Assembly (NCBI RefSeq): GCF_041381155.1
Contig: NC_091136.1
Coordinates: forward strand, 49,218,284 to 49,282,283
From: Argopecten irradians
Lineage: Eukaryota > Mollusca > Bivalvia > Pectinida > Pectinidae
Length of the DNA: 64,000 nt
Reading direction: 5' to 3'
Notes under the pieces: model-generated
Told to the model about the DNA's origin: nothing
The model's database searches: none
The model's input: only the letters and a program-made list of their open reading frames with translations
Shown: one piece after another, positions 13,597-64,000 of the stretch
How positions within the stretch are numbered: position 1 is the stretch's first letter
Layout of the letters: every line of letters begins with the position of its first letter
Program-made: the position numbers and the translations under genes

Positions 13597-13738
13597 AGGT
13601 TATTATATGTCAATTTTGATATCGCACCCTTTATCAGCTCGTGACCGCCATATCAGCCCAAGGGCCGCAGGCCCGAGGGCTGATATCAGGTCAAGGGCTG
13701 ATAAAGGGTGCGATATCAAAATTGACATATCATAACCT
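13597..13738. repeat. 142-bp foldback palindrome with a GCA triloop centre
   Basis: The two arms of about 68 nt are nearly perfect inverted copies; the outer 35 nt are almost identical. The centre reads GGGCC-GCA-GGCCC, with loop 13667-13669. A DNA strand from here could fold into one long hairpin. Confidence 0.85.
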
Positions 13739-14661
13739 TTTTATCACACATTTTGAAAAAAAGGAGAAAGAAATTTTAACAATTTAAAAACATGTATAAA
13801 AACGTATTGATCAATGACCGATATTCCACTGGTCATATTGTAGGCCAATTTAATGTTGAAACAGTGGAAAAACTTCATTACATGTACATGTACACAGTAT
13901 AGGTTTTTTTACAAATACATAATCCCCGGTTCAATGGACGAGCTGAAACATACATTTTAAGGAAAATTAACAAGATCCTAGTGAATGTTAACTATCACTT
14001 TAAAATGATAATGTTCAACAAATTCCAGCAAAGCTGGTTCATTTCAGAATGATCGGTTTTACGACGGACAAGAAATAGGAATTATGAATTCGACGGGAAA
14101 ACTGCACGTACATGTATTAAACTGTCTAATTTATTCCTGTGTCTCTTCTTGTTGACGAACGCATGTCGTTGATTTATTTATACCGAATACATTCTTTTTG
14201 TGTTATAATTATGTGAATTGCGATGCTTTGTTTCCGGCGCTGTGGACAAAACTCATTTCAACCTGATCTTAGTGAAGACATTTATCTCCAGTAAAATCAT
14301 CACGAAACAGACCATTTCTGATTTCTGATATCTTTCTCAATACGTTTACCCGAGAGCTATTTTGATATTGAAAATTGTATCCGTTATTCAACTTATCGTC
14401 TGTAGGAAACTGAATCGAAGCGGCAACTCTAAAATCCGGACTGAAAACTCCGGATGACGTGATATCAGCCCGGGCCGATAACTGATATCAGTCCGGGCCG
14501 ATAACTGATATCAGCCCGGGCCGATAACTGATATCAGCCCGGGCTGATATTAAATTATGACGTCATAATGTGATATCAGCCCGGGCGCTGATATGACGGC
14601 GCGGACAGCACCAGTATCGCATGGGCAAAACGTTCATTATCAAAGACAAAAGTGTGATAAT
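13739..14661. mobile_element. Inverted-repeat element next to the foldback
   Basis: ttatcacacattttg near 13741 and its inverted relative caaaagtgtgataatga near 14647 face each other about 920 bp apart. Near the right end a 23-bp motif (gatatcagcccgggccgata) is repeated. The same gatatcagccc words occur in the adjacent palindrome, so the two probably form one non-autonomous element. No coding sequence was seen. Confidence 0.5.
14461..14550. repeat. 23-bp GC-rich tandem repeat
   Basis: Four units built on gatatcagcccgggccgata. Each unit is itself nearly palindromic (tgatatca, cccggg), and the GC content stands out from the AT-rich surroundings. Confidence 0.85.
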
Positions 14662-20502: not shown

Positions 20503-20539
20503 GTACAGAAAAAAACCCGATTATTTATTGTCATTAATT

Positions 20540-21580
20540 GTCTACAGTGAACCACACAACCAAGTCTTAGTTTTCTATTGTCTTCAGTGAACCACATCAC
20601 CAAGTCTTGTTTGCTTTTGTCTTCAGTGAACCACATCACAAAGTCTTGTTTGCATTTGTCTTCAGTGAACCACATCACCAAGTCTTTATTTGCTTTTGTC
20701 TTCAGTGAACCACAACATCAAGTATTTGTCTTTTGTCTTCAGTGAACCACATTACCAAGTACTTGTCTTGTTTTGTCTTCAGTGAACTACATTTCCAAGT
20801 ACTTGTCTTCTTTTGTCTTCAGTGAACCACATCACCAAGTCTTTGTTTGCTTTTGTCTTCAGTTAACCACATCACTAAGTCTTGTATTCTTTTGTATTTC
20901 TTTTGTATTCAGTGAACCACATCACCAATTCCGTGTTTGCTTTTGTATTCAGTGAACCACATCACCAATTCTGTGTTTGCTTTTGTCTTCAGTGAACAAC
21001 ATCATCAAGTACTTGTCTTCTTTTGTCTTCAGTGAACCACATCATCAAGTACTTGTCTTTTGTCTTCAGTGAACCACATCACCAAGTCTTTGTTTGCTTT
21101 TGTCTTCAGTGAACCACATCACCAAGTATTTGTCTTTTGTCTTCAGTGAACCACATTACCAAGTACTTGTCTTCTTTTATCTTCAGTGAACCACATCATC
21201 AAGTACTTGTTTTTTGTCTTCAGTGAACCACATCACAAAGTCTTTGTTTTCTTTTGTCTTCAGTGAACCACATCACTAAGTCTTTGTTTTCTTTTGTCTT
21301 CAGTGAACCACATCACTAAGTCTTTGTTTTCTTTTATCTTCAGTGAACCACATCATCAAGTTCTTGTCTTTTGTCTTCAGTGAACCACATCACAAAGTCT
21401 TTGTTTGCTTTTGTCTTCAGTGAACCACATCACTAAGTCTTTGTTTTCTTTTGTCGTCAGTGAACCACATCACCAATTCTTTGTTTGCTTTTGTCTTCAG
21501 TGAACCACATCATCAAGTACTTGTCTTTTGTCTTCAGTGAACCAGATCATCAAGTACCTGTCTTCTCTTGTCTTCAGTGA
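20540..21580. repeat. Large minisatellite, units of ~33-41 bp
   Basis: About 26-28 copies of a unit beginning cagtgaaccacatcaccaag and continuing with a TTTGTTTGC/TTTTGTCTT variable part. The array starts 38 bases after the donor of the pseudo-exon 4, so it grew within the old intron. Variable spacer lengths (33 to 41) suggest repeated slippage. Confidence 0.95.
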
Positions 21581-22411
21581 AGTTCATCACATTGATGTTG
21601 CACGTTATTTAAGTTCATTGAAAAATTGGTTTTAAACCGCACCTTTCGTCTTTCGTTCAGTTTGTTTCATCATGTTCACCCTATTAGTGCAAGTTGCCAA
21701 AAGAGAGTTATTCCATAAAATCCACCGCCGTTAACTTTCTTTAAAAACTTTTTGTCATTTGTTGAGGTGCCACGCCGGGACCATTAAGGCGTGACGTCAT
21801 CATTATATGCATCGCACAATTCTAGTTTGACGTAGTTTCTGTTCATTTTTACAATTTAAGTTACTTATAATCAATCATCGGAATTATTAGTATGATTTCA
21901 GCCAAGTTAAAGGTTGTCGGTTTTCGCTGCCCTTGTTTTTGCCCCAGCATTGGTTAAAAGTAATGTGCTTTCGATTTATCTTCCCGTCCTCTTCTTCAGA
22001 AATGAATTGACAGCAACGGAAATCCTTTCTTTGAAATTGCAATTTTGCAAGTGTGGACTCGCGCGTGTCTTGTTGTAGAAAAACACCTTTAGAGAATTAT
22101 CATCTGCTAATCGCCAAGGAATTTGAGGATTCAACAGGAGATGTTAGCTTGCTTCTAAATGATTGTATTATTGAAACTCTACTATGTGTTTCTTCTACGT
22201 GAATTCGCTTTCATATGTTACCATATCTTAGTTTGGTCGGTGTAGAGTGGTGTGGCCAGATCTGTGACAGGCAGTTCCTGATAATTCCGCATTCGCACCT
22301 TTGATCAACTTTGATATGTTCAACTGTAACAAAGACGTCATTAATTGGCAATCTAAAGTATCATTGATTTATACATACCAGGAATAGAACCTAAACCAAT
22401 GTATATCTTAT
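21581..22411. other. Intergenic, nothing recognised
   Basis: No coding or repeat structure could be supported. Confidence 0.45.
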
Positions 22412-25289: not shown

Positions 25290-26160
25290 AAGTGTTCGAC
25301 CCTAAGAAGTATTTGTATTGTAGGATTTAACCCGGGTACCAATATGGAAAACATTTTGCGAAGAAATTGTTGGATTGACCCTGTTCCACGCCACATTGTA
25401 AAACTACAGAATATGGCAAAGATGCGAGGAGTTCCGGAGAACATTCGGGAACAAATAAAGACATCCATAGACTGTATTAATGTAAGTAGTTTTACTTATC
25501 TGGTAGTTGTCTGAAATATTCACCTCTCAGTAGCGTCCTTTCGAAACTCACTCGTACCAGCTAATTATCTGTAGATCAGTGTTTCCCTGGGTGCCTCTAA
25601 ATGACCATAAATGACCATGTAGATTTTGAAAAAAAAATAAAACAAAAAATGAATAAATAAATAAATAAAATAAACTCCACTTGAAAAATTAGAAAAAAAT
25701 AGATTTAACGTTCTGCAACAGTTGTTAAAAGTTATACAATCTATTTAAGTATGAATGTCCCAAAAATAAAAGCTATGAGACCTATAAATGCATTTATATT
25801 CCAACTATTAATCTACAATGTAAATTGCAAGTGAAAATTAGTCAATCTATTTACATTATTATTAGTTTCCTTGATGTAAAGACCTGTCCTTTGTGTAACC
25901 TTTATATAGGCACGGGATGACTACTGTGAAGCTATATCTAGCCCTATCAGTAAGGACCTTGACAACCTCATCACAGAAACCAATAACTTTCCGTGGACGG
26001 AAGCACATGATCACGGCAAAGTTAACTGGGACATACTGCCTACTATCAGTTCCGGTTCTCTGGAAGGTACATGAATCATTTAAAAATGCAAAATATTTTA
26101 TTTCTCTTACTTGGAAGAAAATAATGAAATTCTGATTGTTTAGAACCAATTTTGCTTAAC
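25290..26160 (+). repeat. 871-bp direct duplication, copy 1 (exons 1-2 of the CCoAOMT-like gene)
   Basis: This is nearly identical to 41911-42785. Differences are a few substitutions and A-run length changes. It contains two coding exons and the intron between them. Homology stops abruptly at both edges. Confidence 0.93.
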
Positions 26161-33900: not shown

Positions 33901-36900
33901 CGAGGCATGTCCATTATGAACGCTGTTTAATTGCATAACTGACATATTATTCGAACCGTGATTTACTGAAAGCATTAGTAAACAACGCTGTGTAAATATT
34001 TCTGTGTAAAATGAAACACTAACGATTCCCCCAGATGGAAAATAATAATTCGAGCATAACTGTGGAAAAAAATAAAATGTGAAATATGATACTATAAAAC
34101 GGCTCTCCTTGTTAAATGCCAATATTCAGACATGTGGACCATTGTTCGTGCCCGCTGCGCGTTAAGTAAAAGGGGATGTATATTCAATTAGTCTTGCTAA
34201 ATAAATGTGAATCAAGTCGAATACAGTATCCAAGCTCCGCTCAGACATAGCCAGCGTTAAACAGAAAACCGAAGCCGGACATAATATCCGGACATTACTG
34301 AGGTGTGTATTGTTTGTGATTAGTGCTGTAGCAATGACACAAATGCATACCGGGAACGGCCCTGCCGACATTAACCCCCTAGGGTGTGCTTACAACAGGG
34401 TAATGCCGTGACCAAAACATCATGTACGCAGGCCAGTTATCACAGACGCAAGTACCTTGTCAGATAGATATATCATTATATTTCTTCAGTAGTAATAAAA
34501 ATGACTGTTTTCCTTTCTCAAAACAGCATGTTGTAGCAATGTTGGAATTGCATGTGGGAGAGTCATAACAACATAAGTTTTGTCCGTCTGACAACCTGAA
34601 CTGTCTAGGAATAATGTAACAGATGGGCAATATGTCTTTCAAATAAAATAAAACAACAAATGTTACCGGGAAAGCAAAAGGGCTCACGCCAAAGCCAATG
34701 AGCAACAACTGCGTCTTAAGTTTGATAAATAAAACAAAATCATCTCGGGATATAAGAGGCTTATGTAACCATGTCTGGTATAGTGGATCGGGAGATTTAG
34801 CTGTCATGTTTTCAATGATATACAAACATTATTGCAAACACACGTTTATTGGTTGTAATGGCGGCAGATTCGTCCGATTTAAATAACCATGGCGACTTTA
34901 TTACAAAGCTGCCGTGCTCGTTCATTTTCAAATGAAGGGCACACATTGGCAATATATAGATTTATACGAAAGACTAACTTGAAAACAAATTCAATATGAT
35001 CGAAAATAAAATGTTAATGTTTTGCAGACAAAGTATAATTAAAAGCATGTTACAATGTAGACCAACATGCTTTGGTAACAATTTAAGCATAATATAGCAA
35101 TCTACTAATTATGTTCAACTGTTTGCTTAAAGATGCCGCTGACAAATGATATTTTTTCTCTATCAAAAACAGGAGCTGAAGAATTAATATTGTTCTTCAG
35201 GGCTTCCGGTGGCACTGTGAAAGCGTGAAGGCGTGAAGTATTTCTGTCTCTACAAAATGTGGTTTTAAACTCAGTTAGACAGAGTCTTTTGGAAATTACT
35301 TTGACGAACCACAATTTTGTGACATTATGGAACATTCGTAACTTATTGGATTTTGGAAAAAGTGACTATTTCTCGAGATATTTGAGAATATCTCCTGTGT
35401 GATGTGAGAAGTTTGTCATGCTTCAGTGACCACCATAGTGAACACTATCCACGCGCACACTGTTTCTTGAGATATACTACGTACAGGTACGTGTTGCCCG
35501 ATTTCGTTGCTGGCATTTATTTGACACGATATATTATTCACTGTACGGACTAGTAAATCTAGAAAATGCCGACCGGTAGGAGTACTAGTACCAGTAATAA
35601 GACGAAATCTGATCGTAGAGGTAGCGGAGTGTCAGTTAGTCAAATGGACAGTACCGATGATAAACTCGACCATATTAACCAGGTATTATTAACTCTCATG
35701 ACAAAAGATGATATGATTTTTCATATGGACAAATTGAGAGATGAAATCAGACAAGAAAACAAAGAGATGATTGAGAGACTTGAAGGAAAAATTTTTGACC
35801 TGGAAAATGAGAACGAGAGATTACGAGAAACAGTTGGTCAGTTAGAGACAAGTGTACAGATAGCTGAAGAGAGAATAGTTCATATGGCACGGCGGGATAA
35901 TGCACTGGAACAACAAGGGCGGAAAAATTCGATTCGAATTGTCGGACTAAACAGTGATCGCACTGAGACGGCTGAGGTTTGCGTTGAAAAATGTGCCAAA
36001 TTTTTCAGGAATAATCTTAAAGTCGATGTCAAAGTAACTGATATCGACATTGCCCATCGACTTGGACCTCGTTCCACTATTTGCAAATTTGTGCGCAGAA
36101 TGAAAAAATTCGAAGTTATGAAGGCCAGGAAAGAGCTCAAGGGTAAGAAGATATATATATTTGAAGACTTGACCCAGGAAAAACCAACAAATTCTGAAGC
36201 GCGCGTACGAGCTAGACTGTGTTGAGAACTCCTGGTCGATTGAAGGCAAGCTGTTTGTTAAGCTGAGAAACGGGAAAAAGCGAAGAATTTCTGATGACAC
36301 TATCTTAACAAGCGCGTACCTGCTGAATGACGCGAATTTCGCTAATTAATTAGCGTGAGTGATAAGACTAATGCGCTCATCATACGTGAGTATGATCTCC
36401 CTTGAGAGTGATGGACACGGAATTTTGCTCGGAAGAAAAACTGACAAGAATGAAGATTATTCTGATTCACAGGATTTGTACTATCGTGCAGTAACGGGTA
36501 TAAGTACTCTAGTTCACAGCTAATTACATTTTGTTGATGTGCCGGTATGCTATATGCTGAATAAAGCGTGATTTGAACTTGGGTCTCCTACAGTAATCAC
36601 TCGTGTATATCGGTATGTACGTGGACTTTGCACCCGGCGACCCGTCCTCATACACCGAGCCGTGCATACGACATTGACAATGTGCACGTCGTATACTGTA
36701 TACTGTGTTTGTTTGTATACTTTCCAAGCTTCCCAATAACAGTTTACTCAATAATATCCAGTTATTTGACTTTCGATCCAGATACTCCTGAATTACACGT
36801 TCAACATGGCTAGCCAGCAACATGATGACGTCACAAGCAAAGTTATGAGTGACGCTCATTCCGTGATATATGGATCCTCAGAAAACGACTTTATGAACAA

Positions 36901-39900
36901 TTTGGCTGATATGATGAACAGAATGGACCTCAGATTACAACATATAGAAACACATACACAGAAAATAGATCAAATTCAATCCTCTCTCGCTTCAGTGACC
37001 GACCAGGTTGGTCAACTTGACAGAGAGGTCCGTGATGTGAAGGCTAAAGCACAGGACATCGGACAAAGTGCTCAATTTGTTAGTGATATGTATGACGGAA
37101 TTAAATCGACGTCCAATGAGAATAAATCTAGCGTTGAAGCTCTACAACGTATGGTTAAAACTTTGACCGATGACGCCAAAATATTTAAAGCTGAAATAGC
37201 CACGCTGAAAAAGGAAAATCGTGACCTTAAAAATAAAGTCACTGATCAAACCTGTCGAAATATGAAGTATAATCTTATCTTTTCCGGCATAACTCAACAC
37301 CGTGATGAGAATACCGAAAATCTCATTCGTGACTTCCTGTACTATGAGTTAGGCATAGAACGTCCAATATCATTCGCTAACGTTCATCGTTTCAATAGCA
37401 AAAACAGCAGGAAAAGGAGGCAACCACGGCCAATTGTTGCCAAGTTTCACTTCTACAATGACCTCCAACTGGTGTTATCACGGGCTGGCGCCCTCAAAGG
37501 TAAACCGTTCTCCATCAATGAACAATTCCCGAGTGAAATTGAGGATAAACGCAAAAAACTTTACCCAATCAGGAAACAAAAGCGCGACGAAGGTTACAAA
37601 ACTAAATTAGTACGCGATCGTCTATATGTTGATGGTGATCTGTATGTTGTGGCCCCTGATGATGACGTCTCTGACTCCTCCTCTGATTCCTCATCTGACG
37701 ATGAATCCACATCCGGGAAACGACCGGCTCCTAACAATACTTCGCCGACTATCCGACGTAACAATTGCCCGCCGCCACGACGTAACAAAGACTCGTCCCG
37801 ACAAGGTGTTAGTGACGTGACGTCGCTACGTCATAACGGATCGCCACCACGACGTGATCTGTATGTTGTGGCCCCTGATGATGACGCCTCTGACTCCTCC
37901 TCTGATTCCTCATCTGACGATGAATCCACATCCGGGAAACGACAGGCTCCTAACAATGCTTCGCCGACTATCCGACGTAACAATGGCCCGCCGCCACGAC
38001 GTAACAAAGACTCGTCCCGACAAGGTGTTAGTGACGTGACGTCGCTACGTCATAACGGATCGCCACCACGACGTAACAGTGACACTCAACCGCAACGAAA
38101 CAACGACGCGTCGCCAGGACGTAACCCTCCCTCAAACAATAATAGGAGAAACTCCGGTGGTACCCCGCGTGCCCCTAATGCGTGGAATAAAAGGATGCGC
38201 AACCCTTCTACACCATCTGATCGGTCCGAGGACAGGGACAAACGCCCACACTTAATGCCCCCAACTCACTTATAGGGAAACGCCGAGAGTGTTACATGTA
38301 TTTCGTGGAACATATGCAGGAATCTCGCGCAAAAACTACAAGACCCCGAATTTACCGATATTATATGCCAATATGACATAGTCTGTCTGTACGAGTGTTG
38401 GGCGTCTTTGGATGATGATCTGTGTGTATCGAACTACATCAACCATTTTATTCCTCGCTCTCACGGGAGAGGGGGTGGTATTGCAATATATATTAAAGAG
38501 GATATTGGTGATTATTGTTCTATTGCTGAACATGTTAATGACAGTATTATAGTTTTGAAATTAAGTACACCTGCCACCAAGCGTTCAGATGTATTCATCA
38601 TAGCAAACTATATCCCTCCAATCAATAGTACTTATTATGATAATAATGATGTTGATTTATTTAACGTCCTTGAGGAGACCATAAGTCGATATCAGGATTT
38701 AGGCAACATTATGGCTATTGGTGATTTTAATAGCAGGACAGGGTTGAATGATGACTTTGTACAGAATGATCAACTGAATGAGGATTCTATCCAATTATTA
38801 TCCAATGTTGTAAACTATCAGCCTGATATTGAAACCACTGATAGGCGAAATATGGACAAACATGTTAATCAATTTGGTAGAAACTTACTGAACTTATGCA
38901 AAGCCACCGGCCTTCGTATTGTCAATGGTAGGCATGATAACGATGCAGAAGGAAATTATACATTTTATAGCAAAAAGGGATCTAGCCTAATCGATTACGT
39001 TTTAGTAGATAAAAATATTGCATGGAAGTGATAGAACATTTTGTTTCTGGAGAATTTACGCAATTCTCTGATCATTCTCCCGTGACCTTTGGCATCCAGG
39101 TAGAAGCCTATACGACCGTCGAATTAGTGCCAAATATAAATCAAACGATTTCTGATCAGACTGAAAGTACAACCATTGGATATAAGTGGATCCACGATAA
39201 TAAACAGGACATTATTTCAGCTATACAGAACAATATTGAACTTTTACATGATCTGTGTGACATTTCAGATAATACTGATGAAAATGTTAACAAATGTATT
39301 GATAATTTCTCTCAGACGTTAAATAGCATAATTATCCCTTTCTGTTCTCGCATGAAAATCCCTTCTGGTGATCACCAGAAAACACCTAAGGTGGACAAGC
39401 CGTGGTTTAATGACGTGTGCAAGTCCAAATACAAAGAATACAAACATGCTTTGAGCTCTTTCAATTCCTGTAAATCTCATGAAAATAGACTATTACTGGT
39501 AAATAAGAAAAGAGCCTATAAAATTTTGGAACGTAAACTGAAGAATCAATACAAACACCAGCAGGGTAATATGTTGAATTTCATGAGAAAAAAATAACCC
39601 CAGAAGTTTTTATAAGCAATTCCGTAAGAAGAAAAATACATCGAATAGTAAAATATCTCTTAATGAATTTTTTCATCACTTTTCTAGTGTAGCTAATGTG
39701 GATACTAACGTAAATGAAAATGTTCCTGAATTTTTCAGAAATTATGATCTTAAAGATGCGGTTTATGAAGAACTTGACTTAGAAATTTCTCATGAGGAAA
39801 TTGGTATTGCTATAAATAATCTGAACTCCAATAAGGCTTGTGGCATGGATGGCATCCAAAACGAGTACTTGATCCATTGTAAGGACATTCTAGTGCCATG

Positions 39901-42900
39901 TCTCTTCACACTATTCAATAATGTTTTCAAATCTGGTCATTTCCCCCATAACTGGTCAATTGGTAATATTATCCCTGTTTTCAAGAAGGGTGATATTGAC
40001 GACACTAATAATTATAGAGGAATCACCCTAGTCAGTTGTTTAGGAAAACTATTCACGTCTATCTTGAACCGTAGGTTACTAGCATTTGATAGTAAATACA
40101 ATATCATTACTGACGCACAATTTGGCTTCCGCAAAAATCTATCCACTGTCGACGCTATTTTTGCCTTACAGGCCTTAATTAATAAAAGTCTTAAAACTAA
40201 GAAAAGATTATACTGCTGTTTCATAGATTACCGTAAGGCATTTGATTTTATTAATCGACAAAACCTGTACTATAAACTAATAAAAGAGGGTATTGAAGGT
40301 AAGATGTTGGCTATTATACGCTCGCTATATCATAAAGTTAGAAGTTGTGTTAAATATAATGGGTCGAATTCTGACTTTTTCGAATGTAAAAACGGTTTGT
40401 TGCAAGGCGAAGTACTATCCCCTATATTATACTCCCTCTACGTTAATGATTTTGAAATGCAATTTATAAGTGACAATTGCCCAAGTATCGAATTACAGGA
40501 ACTGAATATGTTTCTGATCATGTATGCAGATGACACCGTTATTTTAGCTGAAACTCCTGAAGGCTTACAAAAACTGTTAAACTCGTTGCTTAACTATACC
40601 ATGAAATGGGCGCTAACTGTTAACACTGATAAAACAAAAATTATGATTTTCAGAAACGGTGGGGTAATTAGGGAAAATGAACAGTGGTTTTATAACGGTG
40701 AAAAATTAGAAATTGTAAATGAATTCAACTATTTAGGTATGCTTATGAATTACAATGGCAAATTTAGACAAACTCAGAAAAAAGTAGCAGATCAGGGACG
40801 TAAAGCATTATTTGCAATCGACAAAATTTGTAGAGAGAATTTTTTCAACATTGAAACTCAACTATCCGTTTTTGATACTTTCGTAGGTAGTGTTATAAAC
40901 TATGCCTCGGAAATATGGGGTTTCCACCAAGCACCTGATGTCGAAAAAATACAAATTAGGTTTTGTAGAAAGTTGCTAGGAATTAGAAAGAGTGCTTGTA
41001 ACAATTTTGTTTACAAAGAACTTGGGCGCTACCCTTTACACATCGTGCGAAAATTAAGAATTTTTAAATATTGGATCAAACTCAAAAACACAGATAACTG
41101 TATACTTCAGGCAAGTTATGAAAATATGCTACAGAACGGCGATAGTTGGGTTCTGAGTATTAAAAATGAATTGTATAGAAGTGGACTAGGGTTCATATGG
41201 GAGTCTCCCAATGTTGATAACGTAACATATTTAAAAATAAAATACAGAATCTTGGACATTTTTCAACAAAAATGCCACGAATCTATAATTTCAAGTCCGA
41301 AAGGACATATTTTTCAACATTTAAATAATTCGTTTACCCTCCAAACTTATCTGATCAAAATGAGCAGCCGAGTCTATCAGAGAGAAGTCACTAAAATTAG
41401 GACATCCGCCCACTTACTCAATATCGAAAGTGGTCGTTTTAGGAATATTCAAAGAACTGAACGAAAATGCCATGTCTGCGATAAAAATGATATTGAAGAT
41501 GAATTCCATTTTATACTTATTTGTCCTTTATACAATGATTTACGCCAACAATTAATCAAACTGTTCTATAGAAGAAACCCAAGTGTGTTTAAGTTAATCC
41601 AACTGTTATCTTCTGATAATGTAACAGAATTAAATAATTTGGGGAAATACATTTTCCGCGCGAACAAACGCCGAGCTGAATGTCTTGTGTTACAAAATGT
41701 ACAGCCGTAAATTGCCATCCATGCCATTAATGCCCTATCTTTATCTATATTATTATTTCTATGTTATTGATCTATCTTTATTTCATCATGTGTTTGTTTG
41801 TCACGCTCTCAAGGTTTTCACTCTCTTAATTGTTATGTTATGTATTTATATGATTTGTATAATCTGATTAGCGTTTGCTAAAGGAATAAAGAAATTGAAA
41901 TTGAAAATTGAAGTGTTCGACCCTAAGAAGTATTTGTATTGTAGGATTTAACCCGGGTACCAATATGGAAAACATTTTGCGAAGAAATTGTTGGATTGAC
42001 CCTGTTCCACGCCACATTGTAAAACTACAGAATATGGCAAAGATGCGAGGAGTTCCGGAGAACATTCGGGAACAAATAAAGACATGCATAGACTGAATTA
42101 ATGTAAGTAGTTTTACTTATCTGGTAGTTGTCTGAAATATTCACCTCTCAGTAGCGTCCTTTCGAAACTCACTCGTACCAGCTAATTATCTGTAGATCAG
42201 TGTTTCCCTGGGTGCCTCTAAATGACCATAAATGACCATGTAGATTTTGAAAAAAAAAAATAAAACAAAAAATGAATAAATAAATAAATAAAATAAACTC
42301 CACTTGAAAAATTAGAAAAAAAAATAGATTTAACGTTCTGCAACAGTTGTTAAAAGTTATACAATCTATTTAAGTATGAATGTCCCAAAAATAAAAGCTA
42401 TGAGACCTATAAATGCATTTATATTCCAACTATTAATCTACAATGTAAATTGCAAGTGAAAATTAGTCAATCTATTTACATTATTATTAGTTTCCTTGAT
42501 GTAAAGACCTGTCCTTTGTGTAACCTTTATATAGGCACGGGATGACTACTGTGAAGCTATATCTAGCCCTATCAGTAAGGACCTTGACAACCTCATCACA
42601 GAAACCAATAACTTTCCGTGGACGGAAGCACATGATCACGGCAAAGTTAACTGGGACATACTGCCTACTATCAGTTCCGGTTCTCTGGAAGGTACATGAA
42701 TCATTTAAAAATGCAAAATATTTTATTTCTCTTACTTGGAAGAAAATAATGAAATTCTGATTGTTTAGAACCAATTTCGCTTAACATTAAAATAATTATT
42801 ATCAGGGATAATATTTATTGTTTTGACCATAATTTCAGGCACTTTCCTGAAAACAATTGTTGGAATATCGAACGCGAAACGGGTCCTAGAACTAGGTCTC

Positions 42901-59694: not shown

Positions 59695-61700
59695 TTATTT
59701 CACTCTCAGACATACAAGTATGTAAACAGGAGGTCACTATACATAATATAAACATACAAGTATAATGGGCCCATAGCGCAACAGTGCATTACAATATGTA
59801 TTAGTGATGTACATGCTCAATCAATAGTTTTTCAATTTTTTTTTTAAAAACTTATATTTGTCAGAACAGTAATGTTACATATAGTAAACAGGCCTTTCAT
59901 TTTGATAACACTATGGTTTCTATAATAGTAACTTGGTATATACATTTCTCGTAAACGTTTCACCATTTCATTACTGCATTGAAACAAATAATGATATTCG
60001 TTTCCAATATCAGTAAAACATAGATTACAAGTTCTATTTACTTCAGGGGTCCCAGTCCATCTTCCAGTTTCTATAGGTAAGTGCATGTTCGAGGTTCTGA
60101 ATTTTATGATGATTTGTCTATCTATTGGCTTTAGTTTCACAAGATACTTTTCAAATTCAAAATTGCTTTTAAAAATAGAATAAGTACGACCTCTTGATGA
60201 ATTCTCTATATCATTAAACCATTTTTGTACAAATTGATCTTGTAATCTTTGTTTTACGATAGATTTCAAATATTCTCTATTATATGTACATACATTCTGG
60301 AAGTCCCATATATAATTCAAACCAGTTTCTTCAAAAAAATGTTTTTAACATTTTGCATCCATTTGAATTCCATGATATTTATTTGTTTGCAAGTTTTAAC
60401 ATCAACTTATATATATTACTTGAAAGATTATCAGTAGTAATCGATTTATGCCAGAACATAATAATTCTGTTTTTAAACCTCTATATAGTGAGGGAATCTC
60501 CCTAATTCACCATATACCATGTAATTACACGTACTTTTCCTAACGCCGAGTATACGTTTACAAAACTGTAAATGAAGCTTTTCTATAGCTGTAATATTTT
60601 CGTGACCCCATACTTCTACTGAGTACATCAATATTGATAAAACAAGAGAATCGTACACTTTTAACTAGAGGTCGATAGGAAGAGGAATGTTTCTTATTTT
60701 CTTGTAAACAGCAAACATAGCTTTTCTTGACTGTTCCAACAGTTTCAATTTCGTTTTATGAAAAAACTCCCATTGTAATTCATCAATATTCCTAGATAAG
60801 AAAAACGAATCTACAATTTCAATCTCTTTGTTAAATAATGTGAAATGAGGACGAGTTCGAGACTTCCTCTTTGAAAAAATAACAATTTTTGTCTTATTTG
60901 TGTTTACTTAAAGTTTCCAATTTTCACAATAAATTTCAAATTTATTTTAAGGCTGACTGTAGATCGTTAGCTGATTCAGCCATTATAACTGTATCATCTG
61001 CATAAAGAATTACAAATAGTTTAATATACATTCCAATAGTATTACCTAAATCTTTTACATTCTTCAAACAGTTGACACCATGCTCTTCAAAAAAAGTTTC
61101 AATATCATTAAGAAAAATAGCAAATAAGAAGGGTGACAAATTTTCTCCTTGCTTTACACCGACGTTGCAAGTAAACATATCAGATACATCATTTCCATTT
61201 TTGACACAGGATTTTGTATTTTCATATAGATTAATAATTGCTTTTAAACATTTTCCCTGTTATATTGCTTCTTTGAACTTTTTGCCATAAACCGAGTCTC
61301 CAAACTGAATCAAAAGCTTTTCTAAAATCAACAAACGAACAGAACAGTTTTTTTACCAAGTGAGAAATAGATAGAAGTTAGAACATGTAGAATAAAAATA
61401 TTATCAGTTGTAGAATGGTTTTTCCTGAATCCTGCCTGGGCAGAAGTTATCAAATTTATTTCATCAGCCATTTTGTTTAGTCTACAATTTAATATGGATG
61501 TAAAAACTTTACCGAGACAAGAAACAAGACTTATTGCTCTATAATTATCTAAATTGTTAGGATCCCCTTTACGCTTATATATAGGTTTTATAACCCCTAT
61601 TTTCCATGAGCTTGGAATGAAGCCCGTATCAAATATGATATTAAATATCTTACAATATAATGGCATAAGAATTTCTGCGGTGGATTTTAAGTATTCATTT

Positions 61701-61855
61701 AAGGATTGATTGTCAATTTTTGTTGCTTGCATTGACTGATGAAGAAAGTTAATCTCGTGCAAATGAAGTGAACTGCGAAGCAGTTCATGTAACATTTGCA
61801 CGAGATTAACTTTCTTCATCAGTCAATGCAAGCAAAAAATTGATAATCAATCCTT
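61701..61855. repeat. 155-bp foldback palindrome, GCGAAGC centre
   Basis: Two 74-nt arms, inverse copies apart from a few bases near the centre and two small indels, surround GCGAAGC at 61775-61781. The outer ends are AAGGATT and AATCCTT. Confidence 0.92.
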
Positions 61856-63229
61856 ATATTTACGTTAACCAATTTAAATATCCCGCTTTTGAAAAAAAGT
61901 CAAATTATATGTATTCGGTATAAGATTATTATACAATTTGCAACATTGTACCAGTTATCGTACATGTATGTACAGCTACGGAACAGCCGCCAGTCAGTTC
62001 TTTTCGTCACCAAGGCAACATAAAATGTAGTTCCGAAAATAACTTCATTCTTTGCGCGTTGTTACAATTAAAAACGGCGATTTTGAAATATTGTTTTTAT
62101 GTACAAGAATTAATGGCTTAAATTTTATCATAAAAACATGATCATGTAACTTCAAATAAGAAAATACTGCGCAGTACTAGCAGTGCAGTCAACGTGTAAT
62201 CCGGTTGCTCGATTTAGCAGGGGTCCGGTTTTGAAGAAAATGACGATTGTGGTGAAAATGCTGAATAGGACCTAGTTGGTATCTAAACATAATCAAATCT
62301 TTTAAAAAATCAATTGCGATTTTTTTGGAATGTACCTGGGGTAATGTTGTATTTCCGTCTGGTAATTGTTTGTAGGCCTAGCTGGCAGTTAAATGTTTTA
62401 TTAACATAACCTGTTATGAATCCAACCCCTGTGTCTATGGTTATGCGATGCAGTCCAAGAACCATGCTTCAGGGCTCTAATAAAAGTGTGTTAAAATGTG
62501 GGATTTAGTCGCAGATCACTAGGAAGACTTGTGTGTTATTCTTGAAATGTGATAACTTTCTCTGTCAACTGGAGTTTTAGGATTAAAATTCTGTATAAAG
62601 TAAGTAGTGAGAAACATTGATTTTGAAATTTTTGGTGGTTTCCAACGACCCTCGAAAGCCGTGGGTCGTTTGACACTCGCAGAATCGTTTCGTCAGGCTT
62701 ATGTCACTGAAATCAGCCTGTTTGGTATTTGAGCGTATTTTTATGGAATCTATCGTTTCTAAAGCTTACATGTATGTCACCGTTTCGCATATAGATCTAT
62801 ATATTGTACACATTATCCTAACTATTTGCGTTCGATTATGCCTACTTCGATGAGTGATGAACATCGCTGCGCTCAGTAGCCTATGTTCAGCATTTTCCGG
62901 GGCTTGAGCCTAAGTCATCGTTTTTTCAAAATACGTGTAAAATATCTGTAATATCATATTACTAACAATTTCTAATATCACTTTATCAAACATTTCTGTC
63001 TGTGTTTCTAAATGTACAGCGATAGGCCACATCCCAGAAAGTTCATTCAAAACTGAAGCGGCGTAAAACTACAGAGCTCTGTAGGTTAAAATGTAAACAA
63101 TGTCAAAATGTATTCTCACGCCGCCGGTCAGAGGTCAGCGCGCTGTGACCAAGCATCTTCATTGGGAAATGAAGTGATCGAGAGTTTACTAGTTTCATTG
63201 AAGGCGGAGCGAAGTGAATAAATGTAAAT
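61702..63229. mobile_element. 1.5-kb hairpin-ended element inserted in the LINE
   Basis: ATTTA at 61697-61701 and 63230-63234 flanks it. Joining the outer flanks gives minus-strand ATTCTAAATGAATACTTA, i.e. ILNEYL, as expected in LINE RT. The palindrome forms the low-coordinate end. The other end (ATTTACATTTATTCACTTCG on the minus strand) is not an inverse of it. No coding sequence was recognised. Confidence 0.75.
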
Positions 63230-63435
63230 ATTTAGAATTCATCATGACCTGGAGCCTTATTATTACTTAAACCGGCAATAGAACAAGTTATTTCGTCCTC
63301 AGTATATTTCGTTATTTAATAAAATCATCAAATATCCCATCATACAATTTCGCCATCAAAGCTATTATTAGAGTTATCTCCCTTGTTTAAATTTTTGAAA
63401 TAATCATACAAATCTTCTATGGATATATCAATAAT

Positions 63436-63789
63436 TCAATTTTGCTTGTTACGAGCATTTTCATTGGCTTAAAAATTTACTTTATCAAGCCCATAAAGGA
63501 AAAAATGGCCCCGTCGACGTTTATAACGTTGCTTCTGATTGGCTGAGATGACGGCGTAATGATTTCATAGACAAAAGAGTCCCATAATGAATTTTGAATA
63601 TTGAAGAGATTATCTTTAGTAAATTGAATTATAAGGATTAATTTGAATATATTTTTTATGTTATGGAGATATAACACAAAAATCTGAGTGTACTCTCATC
63701 ATAAACCGCTTCGCGGTTTATTTAGAGTACACTCAGATTTTTGTGTTATATCTCCATAACATAAAAAATATATTCAAGTTAATCCTTAA
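63436..63789. mobile_element. 354-bp hairpin-ended element inserted in the LINE
   Basis: AATAAT at 63430-63435 and 63790-63795 flanks it. Across the junction the LINE reads KQNIIDISIEDLYDYF without a break. The high-coordinate end is the palindrome 63633-63787. Confidence 0.78.
63633..63787. repeat. 155-bp foldback palindrome, GCGAAGC centre on the minus strand
   Basis: Arms of 75 and 73 nt surround GCTTCGC at 63708-63714, which is GCGAAGC on the other strand. The ends are AAGGATT and AATCCTT, as in the 61701 palindrome, but the arm sequences are different. Confidence 0.92.
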
Positions 63790-64000
63790 AATAATATTTT
63801 GTTTACTAGTTCCGTCAATTTTATTGAGGATATTCCAAAATGTTCTGGGCTCTGATTTGGATACGTTTCATAATTCCCTTTCCATTTTCTCTTGGTGAAT
63901 TCTATAAAATTTATTCAGAGTTTTTCTGTATTCTTTACAAGTATTCTTAAGGGTAGTCTTGTTTGTCGAGGTTTTATCTTGATTATAACATCTTTTAGCC

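Follow-up and report, generated by a model that had tools for sequence, protein, structure and literature searches.

The window analyzed here is a stretch of 64,000 nucleotides (G000:C3:49218284-49282283) from an 846-Mb genome in 1508 contigs. Near its right end lie two palindromes of 155 bp each, at positions 61701-61855 and 63633-63787, whose outer sequence reads AAGGATT...AATCCTT, just as the original prediction had described them. Each palindrome forms the hairpin end of a non-autonomous transposon. The two transposons, which we call A (61701-63232) and B (63431-63787), face each other and are both inserted within a copy of a non-LTR retrotransposon. The features of the locus are arranged as follows.

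61201-61700, minus strand: host sequence, the reverse-transcriptase part of the non-LTR retrotransposon that is split by A and B
61701-61855, plus strand: terminal palindrome of element A, 155 bp, with host flank on its left and the element body on its right
61775-61781, plus strand: GCGAAGC apex of the A hairpin, with the GAA triloop on this strand and TTC on the opposite one
61856-61863, plus strand: inner inverted repeat of A, ATATTTAC, directly inside the palindrome
61864-63223, plus strand: body of element A, without an open reading frame of at least 150 amino acids lying wholly within it
63224-63231, plus strand: terminal inverted repeat of A, GTAAATAT, at the far end of A
63233-63430, minus strand: host retrotransposon sequence separating A from B
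63431-63442, plus strand: terminal 12-bp inverted repeat of B, ATAATTCAATTT
63443-63620, plus strand: body of element B (whole element 357 bp)
63621-63632, plus strand: inner copy (12 bp) of B's inverted repeat, AAATTGAATTAT, next to the palindrome on the body side
63633-63787, minus strand: terminal palindrome of element B, 155 bp, with host flank on its right (plus strand)
63708-63714, minus strand: GCGAAGC apex of the B hairpin, reading GCTTCGC on the plus strand
63788-64000, minus strand: host retrotransposon sequence past B

Open reading frames with matches to RVT_1 occur at 61328-61822 (E 3.3e-07) and at 39587-41710 (E 1.1e-35), and the bodies of the window's A and B hold no long frame. 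A single element spanning 61701-63787 with two unlike hairpin ends was considered and rejected, because the far end of A, at 63232, is distinct from that of B, at 63431, and host sequence separates the two.

Neither palindrome is perfect. In the fold predicted for each, an outer stem of about 60 bp leads through an asymmetric internal loop to an apical stem of 8-9 bp, which is closed by a triloop that reads GAA on one strand and TTC on the other. The sequence d(GCGAAGC) is a very stable mini-hairpin, a point already made in the original prediction, which placed this heptamer at the exact centre of both palindromes. That position is correct for the first palindrome, on the plus strand, whereas the minus-strand copy in the second lies one base off because the internal loop between the arms is unequal. 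With DNA parameters, an A hairpin (148 nt, the last 7 nt being omitted) folds with an energy of -71.7 kcal/mol (z = -19.5), and 0 of 200 shuffled sequences fold as well, which excludes a chance origin. A genome-wide search for the pattern AAGGATT-N-GCGAAGC-N-AATCCTT yields 410 + 449 matches (859), compared with 0 + 0 for the reversed control.

Thirty of the 859 matches, all on contig C1, were read as loci, and about 100 places were seen by their first 80 bases. The 30 loci comprise 29 hairpins and one non-palindromic chance match; L023, found by the pattern and once a candidate for a family D, was set aside as no palindrome, with 37 pairs and -15.6 kcal/mol (RNA parameters). The hairpins are 149-160 nt long with 60-74 predicted pairs, and they fall into three arm families: 20 B, 6 C, and 3 A. 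Searches for more families, which gave 11 matches (control 1), 13 (control 0), and 22 (control 2), returned a family E twice (L081 and L082) and a family F once (L083); the rest were variant copies of A, B, and C and a single unrelated sequence that came up two times. All five families have the GC-GAA/TTC-GC apex and the AAGGATT/AATCCTT feet, a conservation that is built in, as the copies were selected by that pattern. Fifteen stretches in IMG/VR contigs also match the pattern, and none of them is palindromic (self-complementarity 0.28-0.44, versus 0.83 for A). Thus, the proposed architecture of constant length, ends, and centre with differing arms is real and extends to more than two families. 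Clustering by arm gives neither the one dominant consensus of an ordinary MITE nor the many clusters that a hairpin-making mechanism had been expected to leave.

When each palindrome is oriented by the strand carrying GCGAAGC, the sequence to its left is unique host DNA and the sequence to its right is conserved within the family. In the A, B, and C copies read, this conservation continues for about 190-1350 bp beyond AATCCTT, and the family sequence runs to a sharp end at about 1.5 kb in A and C and at 0.35 kb in B. Some copies are incomplete: the alignment of L003, L025, L031, and L038 stops short of the far end, where L016 and L045 are themselves truncated. The palindromes are therefore terminus pieces of larger elements, and not the stand-alone foldbacks that they were first taken to be, because homology continues past each palindrome and makes it one end of something longer.

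The other end of these elements is marked by a short inverted repeat, which in A, B, and C is placed asymmetrically, with one copy at the far terminus and the other just inside the hairpin. The repeat is 8 bp in A (ATATTTAC) and 12 bp in B (ATAATTCAATTT) and C (ATATTTACAGTC). Among 20,000 random position pairs, 2 matched as long as the repeat in A, 1 in B, and 0 in C, a control that was fixed in offset while the observed repeats had a 3 x 3 choice of offsets. In E and F, the sequence just inside the hairpin is similar to that of the other families; for their far ends, the 1.7 kb fetched holds no repeat with two or fewer mismatches in L081 or L083 and one two-mismatch match in L082, which is at chance level. 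Thus, A, B, and C share one anatomy: an end hairpin of about 155 nt, a short inverted repeat inside it, and an inverted copy of this repeat at the other terminus.

The elements insert at TATTT-like sites. The base that precedes AAGGATT is T in 29 of 29 hairpins, and the left flank has the consensus TATTT at positions -5 to -1 (T 24, A 26, T 23, T 27, T 29; n = 29). Empty sites show insertion at T-runs for both A and B. When the joined flanks of A were used as a query, 40 of 40 scored matches span the junction, 32 of them at full length (158 bases), and five that were read by letter show TTCATTTAGAATTC or its complement in four cases and TTCATTTAGGATTC in one (L103). The filled site in the window reads TTCATTT-element-TTTAGAATTC, and the window's host copy lacks one C near this site. 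For B, 36 of 40 scored matches span the junction, the best 11 being three bases shorter than the query, and one empty site read by letter agrees with this junction. By the element bounds chosen here, a filled site equals the element plus one extra T/A base for A and three for B.

Of 48 loci, 41 allowed placement of both ends (L003, L016, L023, L025, L031, L038, and L045 being left out), and in every one of these the far end is followed by T or A. No target duplication is evident in these 41 insertions, as flank matches equal those of permuted pairs: three-base matches occur in 6 of 41, against a permuted mean of 4.6, and 116 of 500 permutations reach as high.

These observations bear on whether each palindrome could be a whole snap-back element moved by cut-and-paste transposition with a TA duplication, read as TA-AGGATT...AATCCT-TA. 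Fully palindromic MITEs exist, and both copies in the window are bounded by TAAGGATT...AATCCTTA, as such an arrangement would have it. Against this stand the conserved sequence on one side of the palindrome and unique sequence on the other, empty sites that lack the whole unit of 1.5 kb or 0.36 kb, and the lack of a target duplication. A MITE whose terminal repeats bound the whole element is excluded on the same grounds, as the palindrome occupies one end only. The MITE reading is refuted for A, B, and C, and we give it almost no credence overall.

A Crypton-like circle, integrated by a tyrosine recombinase through a short crossover, would account for the resemblance of the far end (AATATT / ATAATT) to the target, which is seen at both insertions in the window, and for the lack of any other target duplication. 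Crossover of this kind fits poorly with a far end that is nearly constant among copies and a palindrome-side flank that varies. To our knowledge, Cryptons do not carry a giant terminal hairpin, and we consider this origin very unlikely.

A closer likeness is found among Helitron relatives. HINE/DINE-1 elements are non-autonomous Helentrons (Thomas et al., 2014; PMC4067079). As described there, they are non-coding; of their short subterminal inverted repeats, one copy is close to a terminus and the other precedes a terminal palindrome; and their T-rich insertion sites, in which the number of Ts varies, are left unmodified (PMC4067079). The same order of repeat and palindrome is confirmed in A, B, and C, and asymmetric repeats of about 11-15 bp with the inner copy followed by a palindrome are matched by the 12-bp repeats of B and C, with A having only 8 bp. 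The proportions are different: mite HINEs have a palindrome of 5-10 bp and a 3' repeat placed 38-60 bp before the end (PMC4067079), a space that is here filled entirely by a hairpin of about 155 nt. Our elements also differ in that the T run lies on the opposite strand relative to the palindrome, and no partner was found for them. In the Pacific oyster, Cg_HINEs likewise have a subterminal inverted repeat followed by a palindrome at one end and T-rich insertion without duplication, but they carry satellite-like arrays and a right flank of about 60 bp, in place of which our elements have the hairpin of about 155 nt (PMC7492417). The A and B copies of the window showed no satellite-like array.

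Helitron2 elements of the FoHeli type offer a second comparison, having asymmetric terminal inverted repeats and terminal hairpins (PMC5148889). The 5' hairpin of FoHeli1/2 has a GAA loop, as we read it from the printed sequence, the 3' end is AT-rich (ATATTTT), and insertion occurs between TNAT and either T (figure legend) or A (text) (PMC5148889). Their hairpin stems are a few base pairs long and contain the inverted repeat, whereas here the repeat lies outside a giant hairpin (PMC5148889). Helitron2 elements have hairpins at both termini; A, B, and C have the asymmetric repeats, and the giant hairpin is seen at one terminus. The bat Helitron Helraiser is informative in another way, because its terminal hairpin serves as a transposition terminator that kept about 90% activity when the stem was exchanged, and behaved as if the palindrome had been deleted when the loop and one pair beneath it were altered (PMC4778049). 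This behavior recalls the differing arms and fixed apex of the hairpins described here, although Helraiser has a 19-bp palindrome, TC...CTAG ends, an AT target, and no inverted repeats, and is in these respects unlike our elements (PMC4778049). Canonical Helitrons (Helitron1), with 5'-TC and CTRR-3' ends and insertion between A and T, were also considered and set aside, the ends here being AATATTTAC / ATAATTC and AATCCTT.

We therefore regard A, B, and C as probable members of the HINE/Helitron2 group, because the lack of target duplication, the asymmetric short inverted repeats, the terminal hairpin, and the T-rich targets occur together. As a complete account, we favor, at somewhat better than even chances, Helitron2/Helentron-like rolling-circle elements in which the hairpin is an enlarged end signal that is kept complementary, and whose families derive from one palindromic end. 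Specifically, a RepHel protein would mobilize elements of the A, B, and C type in trans, and the hairpin would act as an end or terminator signal that has grown far beyond the described size. The families would descend from a single palindromic end whose sequence drifts. Its arms might stay complementary because copies with poor hairpins do not transpose; alternatively, one arm might sometimes serve as the template for the other during a single-stranded stage. In the cited papers, Helitron-type hairpin ends are palindromes of 5-20 bp, and none as large as these appears in the open-access literature searched (PMC4067079, PMC7492417, PMC5148889, PMC4778049, PMC7992393, PMC11136912). Among the papers listed for GCGAAGC, most concern oligonucleotides and aptamers, and none has a title on transposons.

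The polarity of the elements is less easily placed. The T-run target lies on the strand that begins with the palindrome, which is opposite to the HINE convention as we read it. By the asymmetry of the inverted repeats the palindrome would be a 3' end, whereas, read on the T strand, the layout resembles that of FoHeli, with its GAA-looped hairpin at the 5' end. An HUH transposon unrelated to Helitrons, either Y1/IS200-IS605-like or driven by another Rep protein, would transfer the T-strand with a left-end hairpin beside TATTT. IS200/IS605 elements have a left-end hairpin of this polarity, which fits better than the HINE convention does, and the invariant T at position -1 where the target adjoins the hairpin, together with the lack of duplication, also agrees with such an enzyme. 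We nevertheless judge this origin unlikely, since the asymmetric inverted repeats and the RepHel genes of this genome fit Helitron2/Helentron elements without the need for a new enzyme.

Genes for RepHel proteins are present. The genome has 104 matches to Helitron_like_N, some of which are pieces of one gene and many of which lie in long open frames, compared with none in any of 14 control genomes, and two of its RepHel elements terminate in an Exo_endo_phos domain. Helentrons end in a domain of this kind. On the basis of the Rep-domain matches and these two elements, a source of enzyme exists in the genome. No RepHel element with these hairpin ends was found in the downstream regions of eight elements, each read over 0.7-6.4 kb, and none of A, B, C, E, and F had a BLAST match among 32 RepHel-region loci. 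Searches for the inner end joined to a different body returned 7 places for the A/C type, which is near chance because the reversed control gave 4, and 2 for the B type (control 0); comparison by eye with the RepHel coordinates placed none of them nearby. No long palindrome lies downstream of the endonuclease frame in L079 or L093, and none was found downstream in L080, L095, L096, L097, or L098. A 79-bp imperfect palindrome does begin about 20 bases after the endonuclease frame of a Helentron-type element (L094:780-858, also in L119), and it was rejected as an element terminus because identity with the second copy continues past it.

Two truncated B copies (L016 and L045, 2 of 30 B copies) are counted against the rolling-circle model, which leaves them unexplained. 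In both, the far end is missing its last ~14 bp, with the break following the same bases (GCTCGTAACAAG), and 20-22 bp near-duplications of host DNA lie on either side, unlike in intact copies. Elsewhere, two A elements (L021 and L022) stand head to tail, an arrangement that could be a rolling-circle concatemer or could have arisen when one element inserted at the TT that ends an older copy.

Within families, the hairpin is inherited. Ten of 12 A hairpins are identical to the letter; the window's copy differs by two 1-bp indels, and L091 is older and divergent. The nine A copies with both ends show no substitution in any of their 36 pairs over 154-155 hairpin positions (gaps ignored), even though two A subfamilies are 6.1-7.5% apart in the body. 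Mean distances for hairpin versus body are 0 versus 0.033 in A, 0.024 versus 0.050 in B, and 0.013 versus 0.052 in C, and 7 of the 9 A copies and 9 of the 26 B copies in this comparison belong to the set L001-L018, chosen for similarity to the window's palindromes. For this reason A is a weak test of hairpin conservation; the four C copies were chosen by feet and apex only, and they agree with A and B that the hairpin is more conserved than the body. Over the far 60 bases the mean distances are 0.019 in A, 0.025 in B, and 0.008 in C. This pattern has the appearance expected of cis-acting ends.

The original prediction had proposed instead that each hairpin is made afresh by self-primed copying of a single-stranded end, and so is not inherited as a fixed sequence. 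Such copying would account for arms that vary in sequence on a common length, feet, and apex, and for arm differences that preserve pairing. Each family nonetheless has one hairpin, to the letter in most A copies; several families have arms that are alike in register; and 10 of the 11 positions that changed between the two E copies did so on one side only, with the remaining 1 of 11 two-sided. De novo formation at each insertion is thus not supported, and we hold it to be highly improbable.

The likeness of arms between families emerges when they are anchored at the outer end and compared in register. Over ten family pairs, identity of the 5' arm averages 0.404, against 0.288 +- 0.026 at other offsets, and that of the 3' arm averages 0.371, against 0.284 +- 0.025. 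The 5' arm identity peaks at offset 0 for A-C, A-E, A-F, C-F, and E-F, and not for C-E; for the 3' arm, 4 of the 6 pairs among A, C, E, and F do so. The clearest match is A-E (0.62 versus 0.27 +- 0.08; BLAST 70% over 104 bp). Shuffle tests of gapped alignments are weaker, with z of 2.6-3.9 for A-E, 1.9-2.7 for A-C, and 0.5 for A-B, and B-E falls below background. In the in-register comparison A-B reaches 0.36 versus 0.31 +- 0.06. The arms of B have no significant likeness to those of other families in either test. Thus, the claim that the arms do not match holds for A and B taken alone and fails for some other pairs, A-E above all. The 5' arm peaks in register, seen for every pair among A, C, E, and F except C-E, suggest that the different arms arose by divergence of one old palindrome; for B, we infer descent from the same palindrome from its feet, length, and apex.

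How such arms stay complementary can be approached by comparing changes on the two sides of the stem. Among stem positions 8-60 that differ between two families, those changed on both sides and paired in both number 29/30 for A-C, 19-20/26 for A-E, 27/32 and 29/35 for C-E, 20/34 for both A-F and C-F, 32/34 for A-B, 35/36 for B-C, and 25/40 for B-F. If two arms are unrelated, such 'coordinated' changes restate that each sequence is a palindrome; A-E bears most on arm evolution because homology is clearest there. Within B, covariation was scored in 23 ungapped rows of 155 bp, a 24th row having been excluded as an A copy (L092). Eighteen stem pairs vary, 17 of them through one or two copies, and one old copy (L087) accounts for most of the variable pairs and for both two-sided ones other than 18/138. 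That pair is at intermediate frequency (TA 9, GC 11, TC 2, GA 1; n = 23), with its TA share raised by the ten of 23 copies that were picked for similarity to the window's B. A MAFFT alignment gave 40 two-sided cells within B, many of them unpaired, and was distorted by divergent rows with indels.

From these comparisons, decay after insertion is mostly one-sided, and source lineages can change both arms, by selection, by copying, or by both. Differences between families that keep the arms paired could be produced either by selection for a hairpin or by snap-back correction. The stronger form of the latter, in which the terminal hairpin repairs itself through snap-back priming that recopies one arm from the other and thereby spreads mutations to both, seems to us rather unlikely. 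If true, a self-correcting terminator palindrome would drift freely with its feet, length, and GAA/TTC apex fixed. With hundreds of copies and with arms that vary among families and are still complementary, these hairpins of about 155 nt open two questions to test: which feature of a terminal hairpin (the length or sequence of its stem, its apex, or its feet) is recognized by the transposition machinery, and whether selection or arm-to-arm copying maintains palindromes in mobile DNA. Annotators should be wary of such ends, which can pass for isolated foldbacks or MITEs while the rest of the element goes unnoticed.

Other repeats were seen as well. Next to the F hairpin, L083:908-1955 contains two direct repeats of about 0.52 kb that are 95.5% alike. 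In the window, an imperfect palindrome of 142 bp with a GC-rich centre occupies 13597-13738, and 0.7 kb from it, at 14462-14586, is a cluster of inverted and tandem ATATCAGCCCGGGC units. A tandem array of ~37-40 bp repeats (TTGTCTTCAGTGAACCACATCACCAAG-like) spans 20528-21644, and a 219-bp direct duplication (37635-38072) lies within a long open reading frame (36770-38275) upstream of a reverse-transcriptase frame. Finally, the stretches at 25290-25992 and 41911-42617, 16.6 kb apart, are near-identical (99-100% over 300-bp pieces) and perhaps represent a recent duplication.
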